The position numbers were made by a program, and so were the translations under genes. A stretch of 61,719 nucleotides of DNA from Flavobacteriaceae bacterium (GTDB lineage: Bacteria > Bacteroidota > Bacteroidia > Flavobacteriales > Flavobacteriaceae). Location: positions 1 through 61,719 of the forward strand of contig JAQWNN010000020.1 in assembly GCA_029268555.1 (NCBI GenBank). The letters run 5' to 3'. Below the pieces are notes generated by a model. The model saw nothing but the letters and a program-made list of their open reading frames with translations, was not told the origin of the DNA and did not search any database. The stretch's first letter is position 1. Each line of letters begins with the position of its first letter. Positions 19,042-54,311 of the stretch are shown in pieces.

Positions 19042-21897
19042 ATGAAGGGTAAGAAAAATACTATTCGCATTGAAGGTGCGCGGGTTCACAATTTGAAGAA
19101 TATCGATCTTGATATTCCAAGAAATGAGTTAGTTGTAATAACTGGTCTTTCTGGTAGTGGAAAATCTTCTTTGGCATTTGATACAATTTACGCAGAGGGG
19201 CAGCGTCGTTATATGGAAACTTTTTCAGCTTATGTAAGACAATTCCTAGGAAATATGGAACGTCCTGATGTAGATAAGATAGATGGACTCTCTCCAGTAA
19301 TTGCTATAGAACAAAAAACAACGTCAAAAAGTCCGCGGTCAACAGTTGGAACAATCACCGAATTATATGATTATATAAGGCTCCTCTTCGCCCGAGTTGG
19401 AACAGCATATAGTTATGTGTCTAATCAAAAAATGGTAAGTTACACTGAGGAACAAATTCAAAACCTTATAGTGAATGATTACTTTGGTGAAAAAGTCATT
19501 CTTTTAGCACCCGTAATAAAATCTAGAAAAGGACATTATAGAGAACTTTTTGATTCGCTTTCCAGGCAAGGATTTTCAAAAGTTAGAATTGATGGTCAGG
19601 TGTTTGATCTGACCCCTGGAATGAAAGTAGATCGATATAAAACTCATGATATTGAATTGGTCATCGATCGCTTTACAGTTAAAAAAGATGAAGAATTTTT
19701 GAAACGGCTGAATGACTCATTAATTACATCGCTTCATTACGGTCAAGGAATAATGATGGTAATGGAATTAAAAGAAAATAAAGTACGCTATTTTAGTAGA
19801 AATTTAATGTGTCCTACATCAGGTATTGCATACCCTATACCTGAACCAAACACCTTTTCATTTAATTCCCCAAAAGGGATGTGTCCTAGCTGTAATGGTC
19901 TTGGCATTCAACATAAGGTAAACTTAAAGAAAATCATTCCAGATGATTCAATTTCTATTATACAAGGTGGTTTAGCACCTTTGGGGACTAAGAAATCAAG
20001 TTGGACTTACAGGCAAATTGAAACCATTGCCAAATGTTATGACTTTTCTTTGACAGACCCCATCAATAAAATTCCAAAAAGGGGAATGGAAGTAATTTTA
20101 AAAGGAAGTCAGGAGAAATTTGATATCCCTTCTACCAATTTGGGGATTACTCGGTCCTATAAAATTGATTTTGAAGGATTGGAACACTATATTGAATCCT
20201 CTTATGAGGAAGCTGCTACTGCAAGTATAAAGCGTTGGGCATCCAGTTATATGGAGAGTTATAAATGTAATAGCTGTAAAGGTTCTCGTTTGCGAAAAGA
20301 AGCTTTGTTTTTTAAATTGAACAATGCCAATATTGCAAATTTGGTTAGTATGGATCTACAGGACTTGTTCGTGTGGATTTCTGAATTAGATTCTTTTTTA
20401 AATGAAAATGAAAATAAAATAGCTAAAGAAATTCTGAAGGAAATTCGTGTCCGACTTCAATTTTTACTTGATGTTGGATTAGATTATTTACAATTAAATC
20501 GTTCCTCAAAGTCACTCTCTGGTGGAGAAGCACAACGAATTCGCTTAGCAACCCAGATAGGGTCTCAACTGGTTGGAGTACTTTACATCTTAGATGAACC
20601 GAGTATTGGCTTACATCAAAGGGATAACGATAGACTAATTCACTCACTTATGGCATTACGCGACCTAGGTAATTCTGTTTTAGTGGTGGAGCATGATAAA
20701 GAAATTATGTTGCGTGCAGATTATTTGATTGATATGGGGCCCTATGCAGGTAAAAATGGAGGAGAAATCATTTCTCAAGGCAAGCCAGAGGAAATATTAA
20801 ATGAACAAACTCTAACTAACCAGTATTTAACTGGTGATTTGCGTATTGAAATTCCTAAAGATCGCAGAAAAGGAAACGGTAAGTCAATCAAACTTTTTGG
20901 ATGTAAAGGCAATAATTTAAAAAATATTGATGTTAAGTTTCCCCTAGGATTGATGATCGGTGTAACAGGGGTCTCAGGGAGCGGAAAATCAACTCTTGTA
21001 AATGAAACCCTTTACCCTATATTAAATAAACATATTTTTAATGGTGTAAAGGTTCCATTAAAATACGACGAAATAAGAGGACTAAAGCATATCGACAAAG
21101 TAGTGGATATTAATCAAAGTGCTATCGGAAGGACACCAAGGAGTAATCCCGCAACATATTGTGGAGTGTTTAGTGAAATACGAAATTTGTTCACCTTGAC
21201 TCCTGAAGCTCAAATACGAGGATATAAACCAGGACGTTTTAGTTTCAATGTAGTTGGAGGTCGCTGTGAAACATGTCAAGGTGGAGGTATGAAAGTGATT
21301 GAAATGAATTTTTTACCTGATGTATATGTAGAATGTGAAAATTGCCAAGGGAGAAGGTTTAATCGTGAAACTTTGGAAATTAGATACAAAGGAAAGTCCA
21401 TTTCTGATGTACTTAACATGTCAATAAACCAAGCATGTGATTTTTTTGAAGCTATTCCTAAGATTTATCGAAAGCTAAAAATGATTCAGGATGTTGGATT
21501 AGGATACATTACTCTTGGTCAGTCATCCACTACCTTATCTGGCGGTGAAGCACAGCGAATAAAATTAGCAAGTGAACTTTCCAAAAAAGACACTGGAAAA
21601 ACATTTTACATCTTAGATGAACCAACTACTGGACTTCATTTTGAAGATATTCGAGTGCTTTTAGATGTACTTAACCGATTGGTTAATAAAGGAAATACAG
21701 TATTAATTATAGAGCATAATCTTGACGTAATTAAACAAGTAGATCATGTGATTGATATTGGTCCAGAAGGGGGACGAAAGGGAGGAGAATTAATCTTCAA
21801 TGGAAAAACGGATAACTTGGTAAATATTAATAGAAGTCATACAGCTCGTTTTTTAGCTCGAGAATTAAAAGACAATTCAAAACTTATTACTATATGA
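19042..21897 (+). CDS. uvrA: Excinuclease ABC subunit A
   Basis: DNA damage recognition ATPase of nucleotide excision repair. The 951 residues show two ABC ATPase modules: Walker A GLSGSGKSSLAFDT near residue 35 and GVSGSGKST near 650, with signature motifs LSGGEAQRI in both halves and Walker B segments ILDEPSIGLH and ILDEPTTGLH. Zinc-finger cysteines appear in YKCNSCKGSR and in the CETC and CENC pairs near residue 740. The length is the family norm. Its stop overlaps the next small ORF by 4 bp (ATGA). Confidence 0.97.
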   Translation: MKGKKNTIRIEGARVHNLKNIDLDIPRNELVVITGLSGSGKSSLAFDTIYAEGQRRYMETFSAYVRQFLGNMERPDVDKIDGLSPVIAIEQKTTSKSPRSTVGTITELYDYIRLLFARVGTAYSYVSNQKMVSYTEEQIQNLIVNDYFGEKVILLAPVIKSRKGHYRELFDSLSRQGFSKVRIDGQVFDLTPGMKVDRYKTHDIELVIDRFTVKKDEEFLKRLNDSLITSLHYGQGIMMVMELKENKVRYFSRNLMCPTSGIAYPIPEPNTFSFNSPKGMCPSCNGLGIQHKVNLKKIIPDDSISIIQGGLAPLGTKKSSWTYRQIETIAKCYDFSLTDPINKIPKRGMEVILKGSQEKFDIPSTNLGITRSYKIDFEGLEHYIESSYEEAATASIKRWASSYMESYKCNSCKGSRLRKEALFFKLNNANIANLVSMDLQDLFVWISELDSFLNENENKIAKEILKEIRVRLQFLLDVGLDYLQLNRSSKSLSGGEAQRIRLATQIGSQLVGVLYILDEPSIGLHQRDNDRLIHSLMALRDLGNSVLVVEHDKEIMLRADYLIDMGPYAGKNGGEIISQGKPEEILNEQTLTNQYLTGDLRIEIPKDRRKGNGKSIKLFGCKGNNLKNIDVKFPLGLMIGVTGVSGSGKSTLVNETLYPILNKHIFNGVKVPLKYDEIRGLKHIDKVVDINQSAIGRTPRSNPATYCGVFSEIRNLFTLTPEAQIRGYKPGRFSFNVVGGRCETCQGGGMKVIEMNFLPDVYVECENCQGRRFNRETLEIRYKGKSISDVLNMSINQACDFFEAIPKIYRKLKMIQDVGLGYITLGQSSTTLSGGEAQRIKLASELSKKDTGKTFYILDEPTTGLHFEDIRVLLDVLNRLVNKGNTVLIIEHNLDVIKQVDHVIDIGPEGGRKGGELIFNGKTDNLVNINRSHTARFLARELKDNSKLITI

Positions 21898-22175
21898 AAA
21901 AAATAAAATCGAAAAATAGAAACGAGATTAAATCAAACGACTGTTGGACGTTATTTAAAATCATGAGTGAGTTTGTTGTTAATTATGAAACACTAATCTT
22001 TATTGGGACTTGCAAATCAATATTTGACTCAATAATTTTTAAAAACCAACAGGCTTATATGATTAACTTTGAAATTAAAGAAAAAAGTATAAGTCATGAA
22101 GATTTAAATATATTTGATTTCGTTAATATTAATAAAGAAGCATTGGGCTTTACAAACTATTTTTCTATTAAATAA
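21894..22175 (+). pseudogene. Likely internally deleted LOG-family (TIGR00730) gene remnant
   Basis: A 93-residue ORF with no complete domain. The first part, NEIKSNDCWTLFKIMSEFV then YETLIFIGTCKSIF, resembles the N-terminus of Bacteroidota LOG-family Rossmann proteins as I remember them (NDSWxIFKIMxEFV...IGPCVSIFGSARTK). The last part, KSISHEDLNIFDFVN, resembles their C-terminus (SPEDLNLFxxVD). About 150 residues between them, including the catalytic PGGxGTxxE region, are absent. LOG proteins hydrolyse nucleotide 5'-monophosphates to free bases. The ORF overlaps uvrA by 4 bp, as a real downstream gene would. It is probably non-functional as an enzyme, but the retained open frame leaves a new small protein possible. 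Confidence 0.55.
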
Positions 22176-28579: not shown

Positions 28580-29029
28580 ATGCAGAAACTGAATTTTCCT
28601 ACCTATAAAGTACAACTCAAAAATAGGGAAAATAAACCCTATATTTTTGACCAAATACGTAAAAAATGGTTACTATGTACATCAGAAGAATGGGTCCGTA
28701 TTCACTGTCTTAATTATTTTATCCAGACCCTTGGGTATCCTGCTTCTTGGATTAAAGTAGAAAATGTGATTAATCTATACGATACAAGAAAAAGATTTGA
28801 TCTAATGATTATGGATCCCAATCAAGGCAACTTAATTTTAGTAGAATGTAAATCCCCAAATATTCTGATAAACCAAAATGTTTTTGATCAAATTGCTCGA
28901 TATAACCTTATAGTTGGTAGTCGTTATATGATGCTTACAAATGGAATGAATCACTATTTTTGCACTATGGATTACATTAACAAAAAGTACCAATTCATTA
29001 AAGAATTGCCAAAATACAAGTCCCATTGA
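28580..29029 (+). CDS. Orphan HsdR_N-type PD-(D/E)xK nuclease-like protein
   Basis: Resembles the type I restriction enzyme R protein N-terminal domain (HSDR_N_2). Taking the second Met (28580, MQKLNFPTYK) gives 149 residues; the ORF track adds MHFYN. The fold's catalytic pattern is visible as FDLMIMDP, then LILVECKSP, the D...ExK signature. No methylase, specificity subunit or helicase gene accompanies it, so it is not a restriction system. The family is widespread as a solitary gene next to holA in Flavobacteriia as far as I recall, suggesting a housekeeping nucleic-acid role, but function is unknown. The stop overlaps the next ATG by one base (TGATG). Confidence 0.78.
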   Translation: MQKLNFPTYKVQLKNRENKPYIFDQIRKKWLLCTSEEWVRIHCLNYFIQTLGYPASWIKVENVINLYDTRKRFDLMIMDPNQGNLILVECKSPNILINQNVFDQIARYNLIVGSRYMMLTNGMNHYFCTMDYINKKYQFIKELPKYKSH

Positions 29030-30036
29030 TGAAATCAACTGCAGTAGTTTTATTAAATTATAATGGATTAAAGCTTTTAAAAAAGTTTCTTCCTGTAGCA
29101 ATTAAAAACAGTAAAAATGCATCAATTTTCATCATAGACAATGGCTCTACAGACGATTCTGTTTTATGGACTAAAGCTACCTATCCAAATGTTGAATGTA
29201 TTGTTCTTGATAGCAATAAAGGTTATGCAGGAGGATATAATGAAGGCTAAAAAAATATAAAAGCTGAAATTTATGCTTTGGTAAATACCGATGTAGAGCT
29301 TACATTAAATTGGCTTCCTCCATTATTAAATCGTTTTGATTCAAATTCTGAAACAGTAGTCGTTCAGCCTCATATATTAAATTATAACAGAAGAACTCAC
29401 TTCGATTATGCGGGAGCTGCTGGGGGCTATATCGATTCACTGGGTATTCCCTTTTGTCGTGGCAGGATTTTAAATCAATGCGAAGAAGACAACAACCAAT
29501 ACAACGAAACCGTTCCAATATTTTGGGCAAGTGGAGCCTGTTTTTTAATTCGGAGCAATACATTTTGGGAATTTGGAGGTTTTGATACCAATTTCTTTGC
29601 GCATCAAGAAGAGATTGATTTATGCTGGAGAATTTTCAATGCAGGTTATACTATTGAGGCTTTAGGTCAGTCTAAAGTATACCATATAGGAGGTGCTACA
29701 CTACCCTCTTCACCCAGAAAAATCTATTTAAATCATAGAAATTCTTTAATTATGTGCACAAAAAACCTACCTGATAATAAGCTTTATAGTACTTTATTAA
29801 AAAAATTATTGTTGGATGGTATAATAGGTATTATCTATTTCATGAAATTTAATTTTAAAGCAACTTTCTCAATAATTAAGGCGCATTTTTCGTTCTATAA
29901 AATGTTTAAAGCCAATTATTTACTGCGTAATAATCAGAAGAAAAGCGACAAATACTTTCTTAGAAAGAATGTAATTATTGATTATTTTCTATTCAGACGG
30001 TTAAATTTCAAGGAATTAGACAAAAATTATAAATAA
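29029..30036 (+). pseudogene. Glycosyltransferase family 2, interrupted by an in-frame TAA
   Basis: The two ORFs 29026-29250 and 29278-30036 are in the same frame and form one GT2 protein of about 335 residues. The N-terminal piece has AVVLLNYNG, IIDNGSTDDS and NKGYAGGYNEG, ending at TAA 29248-29250. The second piece continues KNIKAEIYALVNTDVELTLNWL, containing the metal-binding NTDVE, then FWASGACFLIRS and FFAHQEEIDLCWRIFNAGY. The expected residue at the stop is commonly Leu (NEGL), and TTA to TAA is a single change. GT2 members of this type extend rhamnosyl or other surface glycans. Both halves are needed for activity, so unless the stop is an error the gene is dead or rescued by read-through. 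ATG 29029 is preferred to the TTG at 29026. Confidence 0.85.
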
Positions 30037-35749: not shown

Positions 35750-36701
35750 CAGCTATCGTGTTCTATAGTTTTATAAGCATCTATAATTTTCTTGACCAAT
35801 GGATGTCGAATTACATCTTTATCATCGAGATAAATTATTTCTATTTCTGCAGTATTTTTTAGAATCAAAAGTGATTCTTTTAAACCTGAAATCATTCGCC
35901 TGGGTAAATCAATTTGACCTGGGTCACCAGTCAAAAGAAACTTTGCATTTTTTCCCATACGCGTTAAAAACATTTTCATTTGTGCGTGGGTAGTATTTTG
36001 TGCTTCATCTAATATTACAAAAGCATTATCCAATGTACGACCCCTCATAAAAGCTAAAGGCGCAATTTGAATCGTTCCCTTTTCAATATAACTCTGAAGT
36101 TTTGCAACTGAATCATATCACGAAGGGCATCATACAATGGTTGCATGTAAGGATCTAACTTTTCATTTAAATCTCCTGGTAAAAATCCCAAGTTTTCACC
36201 TGCTTCAACTGCTGGACGAGTCAAAATTATTTGCTTTACCTGTTTTTGTTTTAAAGCTTTAACCGCCAAAGCAACCCCTGTATATGTCTTACCTGTTCCT
36301 GCTGGACCTACAGCAAAAACCATGTCATTTTTGTTCATTGACTCTACAAGTCGTTTTTGATTAAAAGTTTTAGCTTTTATTATTTTTCCCCCTACACCAT
36401 GAAGAATTTGACTTTCTGTACCTCCGTTAAGCTCTTGATTATTCTCATTACCATCAAGAACTATACGTTCAATTATTTCATCATTTAGAATATTGAATTT
36501 TCCAAAATGAGCGATGAGAATATCAACCCTTTTACTAAATTCTTTAAGTATTGTTTTTTCCCCATATGCCTTCAGAGTATTCCCGCGTGCAACAATTTTA
36601 ATTTTTGGAAAATAAGTCCGTAGTTTTTCGATGTTTGTGTTTTGATCACCAAAAAACTCTTGGGGATTAACTTCTGAAAGGTCGATTTTTATATCATTCA
36701 A
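35749..36701 (-). pseudogene. phoH: PhoH-family ATPase, single-base frameshift
   Basis: The ORFs 36054-36701 and 35749-36048 are two halves of one PhoH-like ATPase of about 317 residues. The first half has the Walker A AVGPAGTGKTYTGV, RPAVEAGENLGFLPGDLNEKLDPY and LYDALRDMI, then turns to nonsense. The second begins MRGRTLDNAFVILDEAQNTT, with LLTGDPGQIDLP. Translating the gap in the other frame gives VAKLQSYIEKGTIQIAPLAFMRGR, the normal linking sequence, so one base is missing near 36108-36114. The region has no homopolymer. PhoH proteins are RNA-related ATPases with incompletely known function. The frameshift may be an assembly error or real loss. Confidence 0.88.
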
Positions 36702-36800
36702 AGGATACTCTGTTAAAATGAATTATTTTTACTAATTGTAAGATGTGTTGAATATAAAAATAGAATATTTTTACTTAAATCATTAGACAAAAAGAATTTT

Positions 36801-46798: not shown

Positions 46799-49234
46799 TT
46801 AGTCATCACAAGAAAAAGATCCTATAGGAGAACCATCAGGTAATCTTTTGGATACAGGTGGAACAAAATCATTCGGGTTTTCAAAATAATTATCAATTTC
46901 CGTACGGTAAAAATCCCAAAATCTAAGGTTTGTCTGTCCAGCGATCCATTGATCTAAACTAATCAATTCTTGATGAATCATTGCCTTAACGATAAAATTT
47001 GACTCTATATTCTGACCTAAATACATTATTTGTTTTAAAAGATTAATTTTTACAATTTCATTAAGTTGCTGTTCATGACCATTACGATACCTAACTTTAA
47101 AATGTGATGTTATCAATGAATTTAAAGTTTCCTTGAGTCCTAATTGATTTGAATCAAATCCATACTGAGTAACTAGACGATTAGAGCGTTCTGGATGTAG
47201 AATCATCCCCAAAAAAGCATTGCTAAGACTGTGTGCAATACCTAAATAATCAAAAGCTACACCACTTTGAGAAAGGAAGTTCTCTCTAGTTCTTGGATTA
47301 GAAAAAGATCTGGGTGGTAGTAAAGTCCTAAGATGGTCAGGAATTTTTAAGGCTACTGGCATCAAAACATTAGAATAGGCTTTTAAAGCATTACGTTGAG
47401 TAGTTGCATCTACCACTTTAGTTTTGTATTCTATTGAACCTTTTACCCCATAATCATAATCTATCCCCCCAATTAATTTAACAACTGCCTCAACCTGATA
47501 ACGATGAAGAAGGTACATTGGCACCATTCGATCTTCAAGTGAACTATATGGCTCACCATCTCTTAAATGATCTAAAGAAAGTTTATTAAGTGCAATTTCT
47601 CTTATTTTAAGTAATTTATTTAATTCTTCATAAGCTACTCTTCCATTATCCCATAAATGTGCAGTAGGGTGGGCGCCACCAATAGGACGTGCATCATAAT
47701 CAGTAATAAATCGATGTCCCTCTAATAAACTTTTTTCAATAATTTGATTTAATGCCTTATCCTCATCAACTTCATCAGGAAAATCACTGTAGGCGAAAGC
47801 TACACTGACCTTGTCCCAGTCTCCTATTCCAGTTTCATAAGCTTTTGAATAGTCTATTTTACCTTGGTTTAAGCTTAAATTTGGATGAGGGTAATCCATC
47901 ACTGAAGTTCTGTTGTTAGCACTTGCGACAAAGTTATGAGCAAAACCTAGAGTATGTCCTATTTCATGAGCTGAAAGTTGACGAATGCGAGACAAAGCTA
48001 AATCTAGAGCTTTTTCGCTCTTGTCATTATCTTTAGTAAAAGGTGCTTCTGTTAAGCCCAAAGCAATCATAAAGTCTTGGCGAATACGAAGGCTTCCCAG
48101 ACTAACATGTCCTTTAATGATTTCTCCTGTTCTGGGATCGGAAACACTTGAGCCGTAACTCCACCCCCGTGTCGATCTGTGAATCCATTGGATTACATTA
48201 TAACGGACATCTAAAGGGTCTACATTATCAGGTAATATTTTAACCTGAAAGGCATCTTTAAAACCAATACTCTCAAATGCCTGATTCCACCAAAGTCCTC
48301 CTTCAAGTAAAGCGGAACGAACAGGCTCTGGTGTTCCGCTATCAACATAATATATTATAGGTTGTACAGCTTCACTAACCAAAGCTATTGGGTCTTTTTT
48401 TTCTAAACGATGACGATATATTACTTGTTTTTTAGTTGACATACTCACAGGAGTGGTGTAGTCGTAATAGGTCATTGCATTTACTCCTGAACGAGGATCA
48501 AATGTTCGTGTTTTATAATTATTATCAGGCAAAGCAACAAAAGAATAATGTTGATGAACAGTCACTGAGTTTGGTGAAGGTGTTACATCCCTTAACTTAC
48601 TCCCAGGATTTTCCCCAGAAAATGTTATTAACATGTCAAATTCAATATTTTGAGGAAAGGCTTTTGTTCTTTCCAAATAGATTGCTGAACGATTTTTGTC
48701 AACTTTGAAAAGACCTTCTCCAAGATTCTCAAGTCTTTTGGAGACACCATGAGCATCTTCCAATAAAAATGGAGTCAAATCAATGAGGTGGCCGTCAGTC
48801 AAATTCTTAACAATAGGAAAACCAAATAAAACAGACTTTGCAAAGGCTTCCTTAATGGAACGCTGTTCTAAAGGATTATCAGAACTAGATCGATATCTTA
48901 AATTAGGTTGAATCAATAATAATTTATTGCCTGATTTAGAAAAATAAACAACACGTTCATTTCCTAATTGTCAGCGATCTAATCCTATATCATTATTTCC
49001 TATTCCCTGACTCAGACTATTTACGTATAAAAATTCTTGCTCAGTTTGTGTAACTTTTAAATATATTTTATCCATGTCTTCATGATAATAAAAATCAAAA
49101 TATCCTTTAAAGGATTTTGATTGCTCTATTATGGAGAGGTTTTTGGGATCGTTATCTCTACTTTTTTTTGATTGGGCGTGAACATTACACATAAACAATA
49201 TAAAACTCAATGCAACAACAAACACTCTATTCAT
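46799..49234 (-). pseudogene. Exported zinc-dependent metalloprotease, in-frame TGA near residue 88
   Basis: The ORFs 48971-49273 and 46799-48916 are in the same frame and separated by a TGA at 48971-48973. The combined protein is about 811 residues. The N-terminal piece carries a signal peptide (MNRVFVVALSFILFMCNVHAQ) and runs LYVNSLSQGIGNNDIGLDR, after which the frame continues QLGNERVVYFSKSGNKLLLIQPNL. The expected residue at the stop is Gly (GGA to TGA, one change), as I recall LDRGQLG in relatives. The zinc site is HEIGHTLGFAHN with a downstream Met-turn-like SVMDYPHP, in the DUF5117/DUF4953 type of Bacteroidota metalloprotease. Otherwise intact, so the stop may be an error or a recent mutation. 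Confidence 0.87.
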
Positions 49235-49400: not shown

Positions 49401-50505
49401 ATGATTACAAACGAGCAATACAAAGACCTATTGGACCGACTGGGTTCCTTAAGGCGATATCTTTGACGTTGATGCGAAAGAAATTGAAATTCAAAATCAA
49501 GAGGAGAAAACCTTAGCACCTAACTTTTGGGATAACCCAAAAAAAGCAGAATTACACATTAAACAAATGCGGGAACTCAAAAAATGGGTAACCGATTATA
49601 ATTTTCTAAAAAATGGAATAGAGGATTTAGAAATCCTAATGGATTTTGAAAAAAGTGGTGATGCAGAAACTGAAGAGGTAAGATCCCATTATCAAACTAT
49701 TCTTTTTCGTCTAGAGGATGTCGAATTTCGAAACATGCTTTCAGAAGAAGGCGATGATCTAAGTGCAGTCCTTCAAATTACCGCTGGTGCAGGAGGAACT
49801 GAAAGTTGTGATTGGGCTGCTATGTTAATGCGTATGTATTTAATGTGGGGTGAAAAGAAAGGGTTTAAACTTAAAGAACTTAATAATCAAGCAGGAGACG
49901 TAGCAGGAATTAAAACAGTGACCCTAGAAATTGAAGGAAATTATGCTTTCGGATGGCTCAAGGGTGAGAATGGGGTTCACCGATTGGTTCGTATTTCTCC
50001 TTTTGATAGCAATGCGAAGCGACATACTTCCTTTGCTTCAGTTTATATTTATCCATTAGTTGATGAAAGTATTGAAATTGACATCAGCAGTGCAGATTAC
50101 ACTTGGGAAACCATGCGTGCCAGCGGAGCTGGAGGTCAAAATGTAAACAAGGTAGAAACCGCAGTTCGACTCAGACACCATCCCACCGGAATTATTATTG
50201 AAAACTCTGAGACCCGTTCACAACTTGAAAACAAAAATAAGGCCATGCAACTATTGCGTTCTCAATTGTATGAGATTGAATTGCAGAAAAAGATGATAGC
50301 AAGAGATGAAATTGAAGCTTCAAAAAAGAAAATAGAATGGGGCTCTCAGATTAGGAATTACGTGATGCACCCTTATAAATTAGTTAAAGATATTCGTTCA
50401 AAACATGAAATGACAGATGTTGAAGGAGTTATGGATGGTCAAATTGATCCATTTTTAAAGGCTTACCTAATGTCAGTTGGTCAAGAAACTAAAGATAAAT
50501 TATGA
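49401..50505 (+). CDS. prfB: Peptide chain release factor 2 with programmed +1 frameshift
   Basis: RF2 terminates at UGA and UAA. The ORF track shows only 49567-50505, but the gene begins at ATG 49401: codons 1-21 end in CTT, then in-frame TGA (49464-49466) followed by C. Shifting +1 from CTT to GAC GTT GAT joins the main frame. Upstream is TTAAGGCGATATCTTTGAC, close to the E. coli site with AGG acting as the Shine-Dalgarno-like stimulator. The product is about 367 residues. RF2 markers are the tripeptide SPF ([14 protein letters not shown]) and GGQ in [19 protein letters not shown]. The frameshift provides autoregulation: low RF2 leads to slow stop decoding and more shifting. Translation is coupled to the HAD gene by a 4-bp overlap. 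Confidence 0.97.
49451..49467 (+). promoter_or_regulatory. RF2 programmed +1 frameshift site
   Basis: AAGGCGATATCTTTGAC holds an AGG Shine-Dalgarno-like element, the slippery CTT, the in-frame TGA and a following C. The spacing of AGG to CTT is as in the E. coli site. In a phylum that rarely uses Shine-Dalgarno for initiation, retention of the stimulator is notable. Confidence 0.93.
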
Positions 50506-53306: not shown

Positions 53307-54261
53307 TTATCCCTTATAATTCCCCATCTTGATAAATTTATCACGACGTTGTTCAATTCTTTTTTTAGAACTAAGTTTCTCTAATTTTTTGAGAGAAAGC
53401 ATCAATTCTTTTCTAACAGTTTGAAAAATTTCATTATGATCATAATGCGCACCCCCAAAAGGCTCTTTAATGATTTTATCGATTAATTTTAATTTAAGCA
53501 TGTGTTTAGGAGTTAATTTTAAAGCTTCAGCAGCAGTTTCTTTGTACTCCCAACTGCGCCATAATATTGAAGAACATGATTCAGGTGAAATGACGGAGTA
53601 CCAGGTATTTTCTAACATAAATATTTTATCCCCAACACCAATTCCCAGCGCTCCTCCAGAAGCTCCTTCACCAATTATTACAACAATTATTGGGACTGAA
53701 ATAGACATCATTTCAAAGATATTTCTAGCAATTGCCTCTCCCTGTCCACGTTCTTCTGCTTCCATCCCAGGAAAAGCACCAGGAGTATCTATAAAGGTTA
53801 CAATTGGAATCCCAAATTTATCTGCTGATTTCATTAATCTTAAAGCTTTTCTGTAACCCTCTGGATTTGCCATTCCAAAGTTTCGGTACTGGCGTGTTTT
53901 GGTATTATAACCTTTTTGGGTTCCAACAAACATGAAAGATTGATCTTCAATTTTTCCAAGCCCGCCAATCATTGCCTTGTCATCCAGAACATTTCGGTCA
54001 CCGTGCATTTCAAGGAAAGAGTCTTGACATAATGCTTTAATATAGTCAAGCGTGTAAGGCCTAGAAGGATGTCTCGAAAGCTGGACTCGTTGCCAAGCAG
54101 AAAGATTACCGTAGATCTCTTTTTTTTTTTTCTTTAAGTTTCTTCTGAATTTGCTCGCAAGTCTCAGTAACATCAATATTACTCTCATTACCGATGAGTT
54201 TGCATTTGTTTAACTGGTCATTTAATTCCTTAATAGGTAATTCAAACTCTAAATACTCCAT
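53307..54261 (-). pseudogene. accA: Acetyl-CoA carboxylase carboxyltransferase alpha, frameshift in an A12 run
   Basis: The ORFs 54106-54300 and 53307-54188 are parts of one AccA. The natural start is ATG 54261 ([17 protein letters not shown]). The frame runs through [10 protein letters not shown] and shifts in a run of 12 A (plus-strand T run 54120-54131); with 11 A the reading would continue [27 protein letters not shown]. The rest is normal: DPRAGTPG-like [62 protein letters not shown]. The combined length of 955 bp equals 317 codons, stop and one extra base. AccA is essential for fatty-acid synthesis, so sequence error or slippage is more likely than true loss. Confidence 0.93.
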
Positions 54262-54311
54262 AAATTTATTTGTTAAAGCAAATTTAAAAATTCTTTGCAA
54301 TTGACTTTAAT

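Follow-up and report, generated by a model that had tools for sequence, protein, structure and literature searches.

The in-frame TGA found at positions 48971-48973 (minus strand) of the DNA analyzed here, a window of 61,719 nucleotides from the draft assembly of a marine Flavobacteriaceae bacterium (GCA_029268555.1, hereafter G000; 65 contigs, 75% complete), is most probably a consensus base error. The raised rate of lesions in this assembly, together with an invariant glycine at the equivalent position of the relatives and a gene that is otherwise under constraint, makes such an error the simplest account of the stop. The proposed situation is that of a single wrong consensus base, its identity as the faulty letter being inferred from comparison, inside a gene that is otherwise intact and encodes an exported zinc metalloprotease. 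Codon 88 would most likely encode Gly in the organism, which would thus make the complete exported enzyme of 811 residues, and the stop would play no part in its biology.

An open frame across a TGA codon in a metalloprotease gene

The gene occupies positions 46799..49234 on the minus strand (811 codons plus stop) and, once the TGA is read through, forms a single frame of 811 residues from 49234 to 46799 with no other internal stop. Its N-terminus carries a signal-peptide-like segment, and the product is predicted to be an exported protein. The preliminary description of this DNA, which had called the product a zinc metalloprotease, is borne out by Pfam matches to DUF4953 (PF16313, Met-zincin; 215.6 bits against a cut-off of 24.2), which place the protein in this family, and to DUF5117 (PF17148; 140.6 bits, above the gathering score of 27), whereas a weak match to DUF5118 falls under its cut-off (20 against 27). 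Downstream of the TGA, the active-site motif HEIGHTLGFAH (residues 423-433; 47936..47968, minus strand) is intact and satisfies the zincin pattern HEXXHXXGXXH, from which a proteolytic activity can be predicted. Sequence searches found full-length homologues, none of them with a solved structure, and the protein had no NCBIfam match. In the open literature searched, neither DUF5117 nor DUF4953 is named by any paper. The family is an ordinary and widely conserved one.

Around the stop, the minus strand reads GGA TTA GAT CGC TGA CAA TTA GGA AAT GAA CGT. A product ending at the TGA would have 87 residues, and not the 88 given previously, since the stop itself is codon 88. The equivalent codon encodes Gly in every one of the 86 distinct relatives compared (31 of them from the same genus, with identities down to about 43%), which agrees with the residue expected in the preliminary description and with the comparison of the LDRGQLG-type motif that it proposed. 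All four Gly codons are in use at this site among the 86, and the nearest relatives have GGA, GGT or GGG; the presence of GGA in near relatives places the TGA one substitution away from a sense codon. The surrounding residues, NND.GLDRGQLG, are nearly invariant, and the TGA is the only departure of this protein from the family-invariant columns in that set of relatives.

The tblastn alignments with relatives pass through the stop and extend over the whole length of the gene at 65-83% identity within the genus, ruling out a chance alignment across the TGA. Among the 100 related genomes searched, a full-length homologue was found in nearly all those of the same genus, and none of the full-length copies contains an internal stop, so that G000 is the only assembly with one; a stop at the same place, as expected for a conserved programmed read-through, was sought in these full-length relatives and not found. 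The metalloprotease is absent or fragmentary in a few members of the genus, whose genomes are incomplete drafts, and only 62 of the 100 genomes matched it at all, many of them through distant paralogues.

Compared with the nearest relative (L003), the part of the gene downstream of the stop shows a dN of 0.081 and a dS of 0.76, and the part upstream a dN of 0.064 and a dS of 0.48, with about the same ratio. When outgroups were used to assign the amino-acid changes (up to 699 sites), 29-39 were specific to this gene and 28-38 to L003, which are equal within noise. These equal numbers of lineage changes, together with a normal constraint, indicate that the gene has not drifted over any measurable part of its branch. 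Judging from these rates, the stop would be either very recent or absent from the organism. An old pseudogene was rejected, given the absence of a second lesion, a dN/dS of about 0.1 and the equal relative rates. The earlier view of the TGA as the only lesion of the gene, with the remainder intact, is upheld by the 811-residue frame and by the selection acting on it.

ORF-breaking lesions across the assembly

Single-site breaks were also found in other conserved genes of the window, including accA, which puts the quality of the sequence under suspicion. The window was compared with the corresponding regions of four relatives (G035, G011, G036 and G021), each being tested with the ORFs of the others, and a lesion of the window was counted when a conserved frame kept open by at least three relatives was broken. 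This screen gave four ORF-breaking lesions in 57.8 kb of homologous frames. Besides the TGA of the metalloprotease, they are an in-frame TAA at 29248..29250 (plus strand), at a position that is Leu in three relatives, in a glycosyltransferase-like gene (29014-30036); a split of phoH (35752..36707, minus strand; a single frame of 318 aa in relatives) by a one-base frameshift near 36096-36111; and a frameshift at an A12 run (54120-54131) that splits accA, the gene for a carboxyltransferase subunit (53310..54303, minus strand). In a sample of 53.9 kb from other contigs of G000, the comparison with G001 revealed two more frameshifts: one at an A12 run of truA (L160:9175-9198; contig C39 near 27175) and a one-base loss in a Na+/H+ antiporter gene (L164:6148-6151; contig C13 near 21150). 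A further case at L160:16420 (prmA/clpS), which looked like a frameshift, proved to be the boundary of two genes and was discarded.

The identical screen detected no lesions in 274.6 kb of the four relatives, nor did the reverse screen in 110.5 kb of G001; the ambiguous cases flagged in relatives were opened, and all of them corresponded to antisense ORFs, regions upstream of starts or gene boundaries. Altogether, six lesions, one of them in accA, were counted in about 112 kb of G000, versus none in about 385 kb of the five relatives. Under an equal per-base frequency of lesions, the probability of all six falling in G000 would be (111.7/496.8)^6, or about 1e-4, a figure that assumes independent lesions and depends on the authors' reading of the flagged cases.

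As accA encodes an essential subunit of the acetyl-CoA carboxylase, a real null is improbable in its case. A12 runs, which hold two of the six lesions, are also subject to genuine length variation or transcriptional slippage. The accA lesion is a candidate for either a length error or transcriptional slippage, and, since slippage could rescue an A12 run, accA by itself offers no proof of error. More generally, the two A12 runs leave room for some of the companion lesions, which may not all be errors. In any case, as this draft splits several conserved genes, its single stops and frameshifts should not be taken as pseudogenes or recoding without the reads.

The single-site lesions in other conserved genes of the window, that of the essential accA among them, had been missed in the preliminary description. 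A 93-aa ORF at 21894-22175 (plus strand) matches just the first 68-75 residues of a protein of 231-254 aa in G011 and G036; this is probably a lineage difference, as G035 also seems to lack the remainder.

UGA decoding and alternative readings of the stop

The divergent neighbour of the metalloprotease gene is prfB (49401..50505, plus strand), encoding release factor 2. Within its positions 49401-49470, prfB contains a classical programmed +1 frameshift site, AGG..TATCTTTGAC (with TATCTTTGAC at 49458), an ordinary feature that is conserved in the genus, and the retention of this UGA site indicates that UGA terminates translation here. The genes for both RF1 and RF2 were found, TGA ends 10 of the 52 ORFs of the window, and the tRNA-Trp among the recovered tRNAs has the anticodon CCA. 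No suppressor tRNA with a UCA anticodon was present among the recovered tRNAs, and neither SelA nor tRNA-Sec exceeded the cut-off; because the genome is 75% complete, these three absences are merely supportive. By these features, UGA works as a normal stop in this genome.

A real nonsense mutation, either very recent or segregating at the strain level, would leave a null allele that yields a secreted stub of 87 residues, with the downstream part of the protease not made or not exported. One substitution would be enough for it, and a young event fits the absence of both further lesions and relaxed selection; moreover, not every member of the order has the exported protease, as the number of matching genomes indicates, and its absence from or fragmentation in a few incomplete drafts of the genus suggests that a real loss might be survivable. 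However, the same-genus homologues covering the region are all intact, and sequence error better explains why lesions are so numerous in the assembly, with the essential accA among the affected genes, so that a genuine nonsense allele is clearly less likely than an error, although it is the next most probable reading. Far less probable is a real stop tolerated through UGA read-through by a near-cognate tRNA-Trp, which would give some full-length protease and had been put forward in the preliminary description as a possible rescue. The base following the stop is C, and UGAC is a weak termination context, used by the neighbouring prfB frameshift itself; the constraint also persists beyond the stop. 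Yet this constraint reflects a history shared with the relatives, none of which has Trp or a stop at the site, where Gly is universal, and the recovered tRNAs do not include one with a UCA anticodon. As the CAA TTA that follows the stop encodes a conserved Gln-Leu, this context is not a selected read-through signal. Neither the proposed rescue nor any functional read-through, which is very unlikely, found positive support, and the published work retrieved on UGA read-through is mainly eukaryotic. The more elaborate version, in which leaky UGA decoding would supply useful amounts of full protease and be possibly tuned by RF2 from the UGA-autoregulated prfB, is barely credible.

Recoding of the UGA, either by selenocysteine insertion or by a genome-wide reassignment, would account for the open frame across the TGA, and for nothing else. 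Against a selenoprotein, all relatives have Gly instead of Cys or Sec at the site, and neither SelA nor tRNA-Sec was recovered over the cut-off, an absence that is weak alone in so incomplete a genome. Against a reassigned code stand the frameshift site of prfB, the presence of both release factors, the CCA anticodon of tRNA-Trp and the use of TGA at ORF ends. Recoding, which is extremely improbable, is already contradicted by the Gly at the site and by the normal use of UGA as a stop. An equally remote reading implies internal re-initiation downstream of the stop, giving rise to a separate catalytic polypeptide. Start-like codons are available for it (TTG at 48916 and ATG at 48634), but they are codons within the conserved protein, visual inspection shows no obvious ribosome-binding site for them, a polypeptide begun there would have no signal peptide, and in no relative is the gene split at this place.

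Comparison with known systems

Assembly errors are reported to introduce spurious frameshifts and stop codons into drafts built from long reads (PMC12007338). G000, which may differ from such drafts in platform and coverage, likewise shows single-base stops and frameshifts in several conserved genes, above the level of its relatives. Genes subject to recoding or read-through, such as those of selenoproteins or with leaky UGA codons, have a frame that stays open beyond the TGA, as is the case here. Unlike them, the site in this gene does not correspond to a conserved stop, Cys, Sec or Trp, and dedicated machinery was not found. The closest likeness is with the exported DUF4953/DUF5117 zinc metalloproteases of Bacteroidota, which have in common with this gene the domain order, the HEXXHXXGXXH motif, the length, the LDRGQLG-type N-terminal motif and, in relatives, the synteny with prfB, the sole difference being the TGA at codon 88.
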